64,000 bases of DNA from NCBI RefSeq assembly GCF_004027225.2, contig NW_022651109.1, positions 165,177-229,176 of the forward strand, in the 5' to 3' direction. Source of the DNA: Strigops habroptila (lineage: Eukaryota > Chordata > Aves > Psittaciformes > Psittacidae). Under the pieces are notes generated by a model. That model ran no database searches. It was not told the DNA's origin and was given only the letters and a program-made list of their open reading frames with translations. Numbering within the stretch: the first letter of the stretch is position 1; the number at the start of each line of letters is the position of its first letter. The position numbers and the translations under genes are program-made. Below, in pieces: positions 5,116 to 59,109 of the stretch.

Positions 5116-5639
5116 TTCGCCCCACCATGAGGCACATCTATTGGGCAGTTTGGGGTCACCCAGAGCTCTTTGCGCCACCATGGAGGGGACAAAACCCACC
5201 TTGGTGTCCTCCAACAACAGCAACAAGCCCCAGAGCATTGATGGGGGGGGGGATTTCCCCTCCATGGTGTCCTCATGGTCCCATCTTGGTGGTGGGATGG
5301 GCTGGAGGACATGTCTCTAAGACGTTGATAGGCTTCAAAAGCACCTCAAGATGTTCCCCTGGTGCAAGAGGAGACCTGGTGAGGCCAGAACATCCCCATG
5401 TCTCAACAAGGTGTCACCAAGGGTGTGGGGCTGGTCCGGCCACCACTGTGGACAAAGAGGTTTTGGTCCAGGTCCAGATCTCCAAGGTAGCGGAGGAACC
5501 ATTGTCCATCATGGCTGCGGTCAATGGTGGCCAATGGTGACTTGTAGCAGGTTCAACCACCTTCCAGCAAGCCATGAAGGAGGTTTGGTTTGGAGGGTCC
5601 ACATGGTGATGGTCATCAGCTGTGGTGGGATACCACAAT

Positions 5640-6110
5640 GGGCTTGGAGGTCTGGTCAATGTGTCCATGGAGCTCTGGTTGGTGTGTCCATTAAGAGCTG
5701 GTCAATGTGTCCATGGAGGTCTGGTCAATGTGTCCATGGAGCTCTGGTTGCTGTGTCCATGGAGGTCTGGTCACCATGTGCATGGAGCTTTGGTCAATGT
5801 GTCCATGGAGTCAACATGTCCATGGGGGTCTGGTCCATGTGTCCATGGAGCTGTAGAAGCCACAGCCAGGTCCTCGAGGTCCACTTGGTCACCGTGTCCA
5901 TGGAGCTGAGGTTGTGTCCATGTGTCCAATGTGTCTCCAATGTGTCCATGGAGGTCTGGTCAATGTGTCCATGGAGTCAATGTGTCCATAGAGGTCTGGT
6001 CACCATGTCCATGGAGCTCTGGTCGATGTGTCCATTAAGAACTGGTCACTGTGTCCATGAAGGTCTGGTCAAGATGTCCAAGGAGGTGTAGAAGCCACAA
6101 CCAAGTCCAT
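5640..6110. repeat. ~21-bp minisatellite 'tggtcaatgtgtccatggagg'
   Basis: About twenty copies with the core 'gtgtccatggagctctgg' in the spacer between genes A and B. It is non-coding. Confidence 0.8.
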
Positions 6111-9378: not shown

Positions 9379-15473
<6,095 letters not shown>

Positions 15474-53552: not shown

Positions 53553-53619
53553 CGCCTCAGGGTCCGGCCCCCGGCCCCCCCCACCTCCACCTCCACCCCC
53601 GCCAGGGGGTCGACAGCCC

Positions 53620-54350
53620 CACGGCCACCGGCCCCATGGCCAATAGCCCCATGGCCAATAGCCCCATGGCGGTCAACCCTATGGCCACCAACCCCATGGC
53701 CACCAGCCCTACAACTACACGCCCCATAGCCCCCATCCCCATTGCCCCATCCCCACGTCCATCACCCCTATGGCCAACATCCCCATGCCCATCACCCCCA
53801 TGACCCCCAGCCCTACAACTACACGCCCCATAGCCTCCATCCCCATGACCATGACCTCCTTCACCCTTATGGCCATCAGCTCCATGATCACCATCCCTAT
53901 GGCCACCACCATCCCCATGTCCCTCACCCCTATGGCCATCAGGTCCATGACCACCATCTCCATGCCCACCACCCCTATGACCCTCACCCCTACAACCACA
54001 CACCCCATTGCCCCCATCCCCATATCCACCACCCCTATGGCCACCATCTCCATGCCCACCACCCCTATGACCCCCAGCCCTACAACTACACACCCCATTG
54101 CCCCCATCCCCATATCCATCACCCCCATGACCCCCAGCCCTACAACCACACACCCCATAGCCCCCATCCCCATAGCCCCCATCCCTATGCCCATCACCCC
54201 TATGGCCACCATCTCCATGCCCATCACCCCTATGACCCTCACCCCTACAACCACACACCCCATAGCCCCCATCCCCATTACCCCCATGACCCCAGCCCCA
54301 CAACTACCCGCCCCATAGCCCCCATGCCCATGACCCTCACCCCTACAACC
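53620..54350. repeat. 'cccatagcccccatcccc' minisatellite at the CTU1 3' end
   Basis: About 40 units of 12-18 bases with 'tatggccaccatctccatgc' and 'ccctacaactacac'. The annotated CTU1 frame runs into it and stops at 54278. Confidence 0.85.
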
Positions 54351-57300
54351 ACACCCCCCCACCCCCCACCCCTCCCCCCCCATCCCCCCTCCTCCTTGGC
54401 CACCTCCAGCGCCCTCTTCCCCAGCCCCACCTTGGGCCTGCCCCTCTCTAGGGCGGCCAGGAGCACGCAGGCCTTGCACAGCTCCCGGCTGGCGGCGAAC
54501 CCGCACCTGCGGCAGGCGCCCAGCACCCTGCCGCCGCCCTCAGCACCCACCCGCAGCCGGCGGCTCGAGTGGCCCAGGGCGGCCACGGCCGGGGCCCTGG
54601 CGGCCTCCAGCTCCTTGAGCAGGGCCCTGGCGTGGCCGCGGAAGGCCTGCGGCGCGTACACGCACTCGGTGCTCACGTACTCCAAGCCCTGGAAGTAGGC
54701 GTAGAGCACGATCTCCTTCTCGTAGGCGTGGCGCAGCGGCTTGCACCGCGGCACCGGCGGCCACGGCGCCCCCGAGGGCTTCCCGCTGGCCTGAGGGGGC
54801 TCCGCTGGGGTCTTGAGGGGCTTCTTGGGGGTGTTTGTGGGGTTTAGGGGGGTCTTCGTTGGGGTCTTGATGGCTTCCGTTGGGTTCTTGGGGGTGTACG
54901 TGGGGTTTGGGGTGGTCTTTATGGGGTTTGGGGTGGTGCCTATGGGGTTCTTGGTGGTGTCCATGGGGTTTATGGGGGTCTTCATTGGGTTCTTGATGGT
55001 GTCTATGGGGTTTGGGGTGGTTGGAGACCCCATAGGGACCTTCATGAAACTCATCAGGGTCTCTATAGGGTCTGGGGTGGTGTCCACGGGGTTTGGGGTG
55101 GTCTTTATGGGGTTTGGGGTGGTTTCTATGGGGTTTGGGGTGGTATTTATGGGGTTTGGGGTGGTGTCTATGGGGTTTGGGGTGGTTTCTATGGGGTTTG
55201 GAGTGGTTGGAGACCCCATAGAGACCTTCATGAAACTCATCAGGGTCTCTACCGGGTCTGGGGTGGTGGCTATGGGGTTCTTGGGGGTCTTCACTGGGTT
55301 CTTGATGGGCTTCGTTGGGTTCTTGGTGGTGTCCATGGGGTTTGGGGTGGTATTTATGGGGTTTGGGGTGGTGTCTATGGGGTTTGGGGTGGTTGGAGAC
55401 CCCATAGGGACCTTCATGAAGCTCATCAGGGTCTCTATAGGGTCTGGGGTGGTGTCTATGGGGTTCTTGGTGGTGTCTATGGGGTTTATGGGGGTGTCCG
55501 TGGGGTTCTTGGGGGTCTTCATTGGGTTCTTGGTGGTCTTTATGGGGTTTGGGGTGGTGTCTATGGGGTTTGGGGTGGTTTCTGTGGGGTTTGGGGTGGT
55601 TTCTGTGGGGTTTGGGGTGGTTTCCATAGGGTTTGGGGTGGCTGGAGACCCCATAAGGACCTTCATGAAGCTCATCAGGGTCTCTATAAGGTCTGGGGTG
55701 GTGTTGATGGGGTTCTTGGTGGTGTCCATGGGGTTTATGGGGGTCTTCATTGGGGTCTTGATGGCTTCCATTGGGTTCTTGATGGCTTCCATTGGGTTCT
55801 TGGTGGTGTCCATGGGGTCCTCGGTGGTCACAGAGCCTGCACTGATCTCCATGGACCTCACAGCAGCCTCCGGGGTGTCTCCCATGGGGTTTCTGGTGCT
55901 CTCCATGGGGTTCTTGGTGGTCCCAGAGCTCCTGGAGGTCCCTACGGTGTCACTGGAGGTCCCTATGGGGTCACTGGAGGTCTCTATGGGGTCACTGGAG
56001 GTCTCTATGGTGTCCCCGGTGTCCCTGGAGGTCCCCGTGGGGTCCCCGGTGCCGCCGGTGGCCTCGGTGGCCGTGCGCCGCAGCCGCGCCACGTCCCCGC
56101 GCAGGAAGTTCATCAGGACGGTCTCAGCGATGTCGTCGGCGTTGTGCCCTGCGGGGAGCGCGTACAACCGGGTACAACCGGTTCCAACCGGTTACAACCA
56201 GTTACAACCAGTTACATCCCACTTACATCCAGTTAGAACCAGTTACCCCCCACTTACATCCAGTTAGAACCAGTTACATCCCACTTACATCCACTTAGAA
56301 CCAGTTACATCCCACTTACATCCATTTAGAACCAGTTACATCCCACTTACATCCACTTAGAACCAGTTACACCCCACTTACATCCAGTTAGAACCAGTTA
56401 CACCCCACTTACATCCAGTTAGAACCAGTTACCCCCCACTTACAACCAGTTAGAACCAGTTACATCCCACTTACATCCAGTTAGAACCAGTTACCCCCCA
56501 CTTACATCCAGTTAGAACCAGTTACCCCCCACTTACATCCAGTTAGAACCAGTTACCCCCCACTTACAACCAGTTAGAACCAGTTACATCCCACTTACAT
56601 CCAGTTAGAACCAGTTACATCCCACTTACAACCAGTTAGAACCAGTTACATCCCACTTGTACTCAATTATATCCACCTAGAACCAGTTATAACCAGTTAT
56701 AACCACCTATAACCAGTTACATCCCGCTATAACCAGTTGTTAGAACCAGTTACAACCAGTTCCAACCCAGTTAGAACCAGTTCCATCCGGTTCCAACCAG
56801 TTATAAGCAGCTGCACCCCACCTACAAGCACTTACACCTTACGTGCAACTAGAACCACTCAGAACCAGTGACACCAGTGACACCAGTAACACCAGTGACT
56901 CCCCAGTCCCCCCCAATCCCCTCCCAGTCCCCATCTATCGCTTCCCAGTGTATCCCAATCCCCTCCCAGTCTCCCCCAATCCTCTCCCAGTCCATCCTAA
57001 TCCCCTCCCAGTCTATCCCAGTCCATCCCAATCTACCCCAGTCCCTTCCCAATGCCCCCTAATCCCCTTCTATCACTTCCCAGTCCATCCCAATCCCCTC
57101 CCACCCATTCCCAGTTTCCCCCAATGCCCTCCCAGTCTATCCCAATCCCTCCCAATCCCCTCCCAGTCCCTCCCAGTTCCCCCCAATCCCCTCCCAGTGT
57201 ATCCCAATCCTCTCCCAGTCCCTCCCAGTCCCCCCCAATCCCCTCCCAGCCCATCCCAGTCCCCCCCAGTCCCCCCCAGTACCCTCCCAATCCCCTCTGA

Positions 57301-58448
57301 GTCTATCCCAGACCATCCCAATCCCCTCCCAGTCCCCCCTAATCCCCTCCCAGTCTATCCCAGTCCACCCCAATCCCCTCCCAGTCCATCCCAGTCCATC
57401 CCAATCCCCTCCCAGTCCATCCCAGTCCATCCCAATCCCCTCCCAGTCCCTCCCAATCCCCTCCCAGTCTATCCCAGTCCATCCCAGTCTCTCCAAATCC
57501 CATTCCAGTCCCCCCAATCCCCTCCCAGTCTATCCCAGTCCATCCCAGTCCCCCCAATCCCCTCCCAGTCTATCCCAGTCCACCCCAATCCCCTCCCAGT
57601 CCATCCCAGTCTATCCCAATCCCCTCCCAGTCTATCCCCGTCCATCGCAGTCCCCCCCAGTCCCCCCCAATCCCCTCCCAGTCTATCCTAGTCCATCCCA
57701 ATCCCCTCCCAGTCTATCCCAATCCATCCCAATCCTCTCCCAGTCCATCCCAGTCCATCCCAATCCCCTCCCAGTCCATCCCAGTGTATCCCAATCCCCT
57801 CCCAGTCCATCCCAGTCCATCTCAATCCTCTCCCAGTCCCCCCCAATCCTCTCCCAGTCTATCCCAATCCCTCCCAATCCCCTCCCAGTCTATCCCAGTC
57901 CATCCCAATCCCCTCCCAGTCCCTCCCAGTCCCCCCCAGTCCCCCCCGGCCTCACCAGTGGCGATCCAGTCGGCGGCCAGCAGCCGGGCCGCCCTCTCCA
58001 GCGCCTGCCTCCTCATGACGCCGCAGAAGGTGCAGCGGGAGCCGGGTCCTAGCGCCGGCCCCAGCTCATCCACGCTCCAGCCGAACAGCTCCCGGTGGGA
58101 GAGCACGAGGAGCGGGGGGGAGCCGCGGCCCCTGCGCACGGCCGCCAGCGCCGCCTCCCGGTACCCGGCGATGCCCTCGTCCACCGAGACCAGCGCCAGG
58201 CGCCAGCCCAGGCGCGGGGCGAAGCGCTGCAGGAGGTGGCTCAGCACCGTCGAGTCCTTCCCGCCGGATGCGGCCACGGCCACGGTGGCGCCGGGACCCG
58301 GCGCGGGCGGGCGGGAGCCCGGCGCCAGGGAGCGAAGGGCTTCGGCCTCGAAGCGCCGCACGAAGCAGCCGCGGCAAAGGGGGGAGCCGCAGCGCGGGCG
58401 CAGCAGCGCCGGGGGGCGCGAGCAGTGCAGGCAGCGCGGGGGGGGCAT
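54278..58448 (-). CDS. CTU1: Cytosolic thiouridylase subunit 1 with large in-frame repeat insertion
   Basis: CTU1 with CTU2 thiolates wobble U34 of tRNA Lys, Glu and Gln in the cytosol, using sulfur from URM1. Coding exon 1 (58448-57956) begins MPPPRCLHCS, then the PP-loop ATPase motif SGGKDSTVL, VDEGIAGYREAALAAV, CTFCGVMRR and WIATG. Exon 2 (from 56148) continues HNADDIAETVLMNFLRGD and later EKEIVLYAYF, CVYAPQAFRGHARALLKELE and the zinc-binding CRRCG...LCKAC. Intron phase is 1. Between RLRRTATEATGG and RCKPLRHAYEKE, where human CTU1 has a short linker, lie about 430 in-frame codons of Thr-Pro-Asn-rich repeats (about 54760-56070). Without splicing the protein would be near 785 residues; the human protein is about 348. 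The C-terminus past ALEVAKEE also runs into repeat sequence (stop at 54278), so the true end is uncertain. Confidence 0.85.
54795..56050 (-). repeat. 21-bp-based coding minisatellite inside CTU1 (TTPNPID-type)
   Basis: The minus strand reads heptads TTPNPID / TTPNPIE, with a longer block ETLMSFMKVPMGSP appearing four times. All unit lengths are multiples of three, and no stop occurs over about 1.25 kb in the CTU1 frame. Confidence 0.85.
56165..56880. repeat. 'cacttacatccagttagaaccagttac' minisatellite
   Basis: About 26 copies of a 27-30 base unit in intron 1 of CTU1, immediately upstream (minus sense) of exon 2. Confidence 0.9.
56890..57945. repeat. 'cccagtccatcccaatcccct' minisatellite
   Basis: About 55 units of 10-20 bases in intron 1 of CTU1, next to the donor of coding exon 1. 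On the minus strand it reads GGGATTGGGATGGACTGG; ATTGG cores occur but without the NF-Y flanks. Confidence 0.9.
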
Positions 58449-58902: not shown

Positions 58903-58990
58903 GAGCCACAGCAGCGCCGGGGGCGCGAGCAGTGCAGGCAGCGCGGGGGGGGCATGGCCTGCAGCGGGAACGGGGGGCACGGTTAGAGGG
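58903..58990 (-). pseudogene. Truncated duplicate of the CTU1 start region
   Basis: About 90 bases nearly identical to 58382-58487, including the acceptor (ctgcag on minus), the ATG and about 15 codons of CTU1 with a small internal deletion. It then falls into repeat sequence. It cannot encode a CTU1 product alone, but it keeps an acceptor and an ATG. Confidence 0.75.
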
Positions 58991-59109
58991 GGGACACCCT
59001 AAAGGGGATGGGGGGGGACCTAAAGGTGATGGGGGGCGATGGGGATACGCTAAGGGGGTGATGGGGGGTGATGGGGGGACTTAGAGAGAGAGCTAACACT
59101 AAGGGGGCG

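Follow-up and report, generated by a model that had tools for sequence, protein, structure and literature searches.

A frame-locked tandem repeat array within the catalytic domain of a predicted CTU1 tRNA thiolase in Strigops habroptila

We analyzed a 64,000-nucleotide window of the Strigops habroptila genome assembly GCF_004027225.2 (contig NW_022651109.1, positions 165,177 to 229,176). Tandem repeats covered 35,738 of the 64,000 bases and merged into 122 arrays. The minus strand of the window carries a gene resembling CTU1 with two coding exons. Exon 1 (57956..58448, minus strand) contains the SGGKDS PP-loop, the N-terminal zinc-finger cysteines and the CTFC cluster motif, and ends at CTG/GTGAGG. 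Exon 2 (54278..56148, minus strand, including the stop codon of the window copy) follows the acceptor TCCCCGCAG/GGCACAAC in a frame that is open over 56191-54281. Between them lies intron 1 (56149..57955, minus strand), filled with arrays of 31-base and 21/62-base units that show no lock to multiples of three; its donor and acceptor scored 9.1 and 6.8, respectively. With the ATG at 58448 taken as the start, the window copy encodes a protein of 787 aa (164 + 623). A second array on the same strand (53613..54286) spans the CTU1 C-terminus and 3' flank, and the frame of the window copy stops where this array starts. Upstream of exon 1, also on the minus strand, we found a partial copy of the exon 1 start (58909..59013, 95% over 108 aligned columns), which at 59013-58909 comprises the 60 bases ahead of the ATG plus the first 48 coding bases. 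The stretch ahead of the start codon would be an intron, judging from its CTGCAG and its position.

Both exons are predicted to encode an NcsA/CTU1 thiolase. Exons 1 and 2 matched the NCBIfam NcsA model with E-values of 2.2e-12 and 3.5e-19, respectively, staying below its 500-bit cut-off when each exon was scanned alone. They matched the archaeal NcsA of PDB entry 6scy with E-values of 2.1e-12 and 3.6e-10. The Pfam PP-loop model PF01171 reached 22.9 bits in the exon-by-exon scan, below its cut-off of 27, and the zinc ribbon model PF16503 scored 46.5 bits at the C-terminus of exon 2 (cut-off 34.9, E 2.5e-12). According to the profile matches and the 6scy alignment, the PP-loop, the three cysteines of the [4Fe-4S] cluster and the zinc ribbon are all intact. 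The CTU2 Pfam model returned no match in any genome searched, which makes that search uninformative on CTU2.

The exceptional feature of exon 2 is a long repetitive insert, which we located by comparison with archaeal NcsA (6scy). Residue 29 of the exon 2 protein (P0001) pairs with NcsA residue 191 and residue 471 pairs with NcsA residue 203, so that residues 30-470 (441 codons, approximately 56077-54755) replace 11 NcsA residues (192-202). On the minus strand, the whole stretch lacking an NcsA counterpart runs over 54755..56077. The preliminary description had proposed a protein more than twice the usual size, and the 787 aa compare with 348 aa given for human CTU1 in the part of PMC10067955 available to us. 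It had also set the insert between the PP-loop and zinc domains, a placement that proved wrong. In the available part of PMC10067955, the [4Fe-4S] ligands of NcsA are Cys142, Cys145 and Cys233. The CTFC of exon 1 aligns to the CSFC of NcsA (Cys142, Cys145), and the cysteine of TECVYAP, past the array, aligns to Cys233. Because the first two cluster cysteines precede the array and the third comes after it, the alignment puts the array within the catalytic domain, which it would split by separating the CxxC from the third cluster cysteine. The same source, as far as available, describes NcsA and a model of human CTU1 as differing at the loops between structural elements and at the termini, and the CTU1 C-terminus as mainly non-structured (PMC10067955). 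The arrays found here occupy one loop and the C-terminus, the sites which that text calls divergent or non-structured.

We next consider the make-up of the insert. TRF resolved the in-frame tandem repeats of exon 2 (54807..56051, minus strand; 7-codon units, e.g., TTPNPID) into a principal array (54807-55828) plus three short arrays at 55874-56051. The periods over the array rows were 21, 30, 42, 63, 186, 207, and 249, all multiples of three. A block bearing ETLMSFMKV was present in four copies with spacings of 83, 62 and 62 codons. The frame is open from GHNADDIAETVLMNF across the repeats up to RCKPLRHAYEKEIVLY. A frame-preserving repeat at 54760..56070 with unit lengths all divisible by three had been proposed beforehand; the coordinates fit, the statement on unit lengths holds for every TRF period across the array, and the phase lock reported below makes the case stronger than it was first put. 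The same proposal stressed that the repeats contain no stop codon. The frame is indeed fully open, but an open frame by itself carries no information. Across 54807-56051, stops were absent from one frame per strand, two frames had 1 and 3, and two had 20 and 45, and elsewhere in the window, stretches spanning repeats stayed open for up to 953 codons. Since two of the six frames carry no stop at all and another two hardly any, the lack of stops lends little support, and we dropped the open frame as proof of coding. Coding on the opposite strand was rejected, as the minus frame alone joins both halves of CTU1.

The signal beyond chance is a phase lock to multiples of three, not the open frame. 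When we measured the distances between successive identical 8-mers (at most 260 bases apart), 413 of 414 in the array were multiples of three, and 41% were multiples of seven. For nine control arrays of the window, most of which have a 21-base unit among their periods, multiples of three made up 6-62% of distances. Among identical 6-mer pairs at 54807-55828, distances divisible by three occurred at 2.58 times the chance rate (the maximum being 3), and the corresponding value for seven was 1.27. Of all window arrays spanning 250 bases or more (45), this one had the highest mod-3 coherence. Eleven core words, picked by the authors, were each confined to one frame, e.g., AACCC in 35 of 35 occurrences.

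Such a lock is partly built in, as the base unit is 21 bases long. It could be a by-product of that unit in a young, neutral array with few indels, translated or not, a reading that we regard as unlikely. The period of 21 is divisible by three, TRF reported 2-6% indels in the main array rows, and independent register changes are few: from the list of units we counted about four that are not divisible by 21, giving a chance of about (1/3)^4 on that count alone. Yet phase is partly or entirely lost in the window's other arrays built on a 21-base unit (29-62%), and the 41% of distances divisible by seven indicate that the register of the CTU1 array did shift, by three-base steps and with one exception in 414.

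Two further measures were less telling. Differences among the array repeats fell on codon positions 1, 2 and 3 in 26, 16, and 42 cases (84 in total, not independent), and pN/pS was alike in the true frame and one wrong frame (0.55 against 0.61), with 1.38 in the third. The codon-position pattern leans weakly to constraint, but the test is not discriminating. Alignment to a 21-base unit with wrap-around lent the lock no support: the array had 29.7 frame-changing events per kb, compared with 13.4-40.8 in seven controls. In a second wrap-around count, it had 10.4 per kb, the lowest by little when set against 10.9-33.2 in six controls. The gaps were scattered round a block that is not repetitive, and we take them for an artefact of ambiguous placement.

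The insert could also be an intron, or an exitron cut from most transcripts, with a frame open by chance. Intron 1 and the flanks around it bear arrays that are noncoding by position, and the near-complete openness of several frames over the array suits this reading. So does a published rule that keeps repeat expansions of this kind in introns: avian dot-chromosome genes are described as undergoing 'sequence stuttering', i.e., local imperfect tandem expansions (Hron et al. 2026, PMC12954441), and in the available part of that paper no stuttering block was seen crossing into exons and coding regions are said to be intact. However, within exon 2 no donor scored above 4.0 and no acceptor above 4.6 (the acceptor at 54804, close to the right edge, reached 3.2), below the values for intron 1, although this test for an exitron is a weak one. 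Moreover, an intron has no reason to keep a phase of three, and just 6% and 29% of distances were multiples of three in the two arrays of intron 1. We consider a spliced-out array very unlikely.

To place the lock in a wider frame, we scored arrays from the window and 15 fetched loci. Of 130 arrays, one with fewer than 30 distances was left out; among the remaining 129, duplicated loci are represented by both of their copies and the loci L014 and L018 overlap, and the loci outside the window's contig (C81) were picked for likeness to the CTU1 array, making the sample non-random. Median coherence was 0.32, and eight arrays reached 0.95, a line of our own choosing. Six of these eight lie in CTU1 (the linker twice and the tail of the second copy described below) or in a FITM1-like gene (three). 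The other two, L013 5694-5954 (51-base unit) and L023 1396-1754 (18-base unit), each repeat a single unit length, which makes their lock trivial. Two arrays with 78/156-base units and without known coding fell just under the line: L011 6057-6528 (0.947) and window 14855-15165 (0.875). An array that is short or simple can thus approach the lock. The L013 array belongs to a stretch (5500-5954) that begins exon-like, presumably encoding the largest subunit of RNA polymerase II, and continues as about five copies of the 51-base unit. The 18-base array at L023 1396-1754 has about 20 copies.

A second copy of CTU1 was found about 74 kb away on the same contig (L009, C81:143200-153199; the assembly totals 1.149 Gb in 89 contigs). 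It may represent the second haplotype, or else the gene may be tandemly duplicated. Aligned over exon 1 and the part of exon 2 that ends with the zinc domain, the two copies showed no indels and seven substitutions in 2256 bases: one in the 492 bases of exon 1, six in the 1245 bases of the array, and none in the 519 bases of the remaining exon 2. The two linkers are equal in length. Outside, the copies differed by 13 substitutions and seven indels in 949 aligned bases of the 5' flank, by 84 substitutions and six indels (40-124 bases each) in 1336 bases of intron 1, which is shorter in L009, and by five substitutions and four indels in 1051 bases of the C-terminal tail with the 3' flank. Together, these three regions contained 17 indels in 3336 aligned bases, 14 of them not multiples of three. 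At the rate seen outside, about five indels would be expected in the array, and none was observed. Gene conversion or homogenization could also account for the absent indels. All six array differences fall within 44 bases (window 54874-54917) and change five residues, a pattern that resembles conversion by a different repeat unit.

The C-terminal tails differ more. The frame of the second copy runs 240 residues further, giving an exon 2 of 863 residues against 623 in the window copy, and 323 of 324 distances in its tail array (L009 1517-2263) are divisible by three. In the window tail array (53613-54286), 87% of 278 distances were multiples of three, and single-base differences put the window tail out of frame relative to the second copy. 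This loss of frame may be genuine, or it may stem from faulty assembly.

These comparisons bear on whether the array is an assembly artefact or part of a dying gene, with misassembled repeats or with one or both CTU1 copies being pseudogenes. In favor of this, two copies separated by 74 kb on one contig could result from the joining of both haplotypes, and single-base differences take the window tail out of frame with that of the second copy. Against this, copies with diverged introns share the length and frame of the array, and the catalytic residues are intact. A genome search with exon 1 returned two matches, the two copies, both bearing the array, and no other. The C-terminal part gave one additional match, in which the zinc cysteines are missing and a stop is present. 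An artefact or a dying gene seems to us highly improbable.

A second gene in this genome showed a similar pattern. The FITM1-like gene at L015 3425-5905 (C78), with a second copy at L016/L026, has two in-frame arrays in one loop, and across the arrays of the two copies, 454 of 454, 86 of 86, and 453 of 453 distances were multiples of three. In two L015 arrays upstream of the gene, the counts were 206 of 439 and 609 of 1017. Counted from a shared point, the copies are 587 and 597 residues long, differing by one gap of ten codons (30 bases) and at six residues. Here the mod-3 restriction was seen together with a length change between copies. The units of these arrays measure 10, 11, 17, and 21 codons, and their full lock speaks against the CTU1 lock being a mere by-product of a 21-base unit. 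Searched against the genome with very common words skipped, the FITM1-like array matched two places alone, its own copies, which fits a local origin.

Identification of this gene was less direct than that of CTU1. Pfam FIT scored 15.8 bits on the C78 gene, below the cut-off of 21.4, and a genome search with PF10261 returned C13 alone and not the C78 gene. The joined flanks of the FITM1-like arrays match the FIT-family protein of C13 across the junction with an E-value of 3e-24. We take the C13 protein to be FITM2 and, from the human protein, the C78 gene to be FITM1.

Taken as a whole, the sequence evidence makes it quite probable that the array is part of a translated coding exon of CTU1, where an expansion of the stuttering type arose within exon 2 and purifying selection kept the frame. 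Presumably, the mutational process that packs the introns with repeats also acted locally in exon 2, at a site that corresponds to a loop in the PP-loop catalytic domain. Variants with a frameshift or a premature stop would then have been purged by purifying selection, leaving as survivors length changes by multiples of three. The enzyme, which catalyzes tRNA U34 2-thiolation, would probably still work with a loop of about 440 residues rich in Thr, Pro, Asn and Lys. This loop is probably flexible and may be disordered.

A more general reading, which we favor only slightly, is that stuttering on avian dot chromosomes also enters coding exons wherever the fold tolerates a loop or tail. Selection would pass changes by multiples of three only, and conserved enzymes could gain large, fast-changing inserts, as in the catalytic domain of CTU1 and the membrane-protein loop of the FITM1-like gene. 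If the CTU1 array is translated, the catalytic domain of a conserved housekeeping enzyme tolerates a 441-residue insert larger than the remaining protein (346 residues). Such an array runs against the statement, in the available part of PMC12954441, that stuttering blocks stay out of exons. It may also bear on which dot-chromosome genes are lost and which retained, with survival possibly favored where the protein offers a permissive loop. As a test that needs sequence only, the mod-3 lock is a cheap way of recognizing coding repeats where annotation is poor. Our literature searches found no work joining CTU1 with birds and microchromosomes and none on FITM1 as a missing GC-rich bird gene; in the literature on missing genes of chicken, CTU1 was absent among the 10 matches listed out of 232. 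Avian sequence stuttering was represented by one paper.

The kinds of phenomena involved, the coding minisatellite and avian stuttering, are already known, and the interest lies in the catalytic-domain site and in a second gene repeating the pattern. Coding minisatellites or protein VNTRs, e.g., those of mucins, are translated in-frame tandem repeats rich in Thr and Pro, and are best known from extracellular or structural proteins. The CTU1 array resembles them in being an in-frame, Thr/Pro-rich tandem repeat in a coding exon, but it differs in interrupting the catalytic domain of a conserved enzyme that acts on tRNA. In-frame repetition in an avian coding exon has a precedent in emu IRF3, a gene once thought missing, whose exon 2 is extended by a small in-frame repetition at the exon border, according to the available part of PMC12220609. 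That case is a four-fold codon repetition at the border, whereas the CTU1 array has about 415 codons within the exon and the catalytic domain. With stuttering as described in the accessible text of PMC12954441, the locus shares imperfect local expansions in tandem, whose units measure from tens to hundreds of bases, repeat-filled CTU1 introns, and a duplicated exon-start fragment beside exon 1; unlike the blocks described there, the CTU1 array lies wholly inside a coding exon and is frame-locked. Finally, the predicted protein has the PP-loop, three cluster cysteines and zinc ribbon of the NcsA/CTU1/Ncs6 U34-tRNA thiolases (6scy; PMC10067955, as far as available), but carries 441 codons where NcsA (6scy) has 11 residues.
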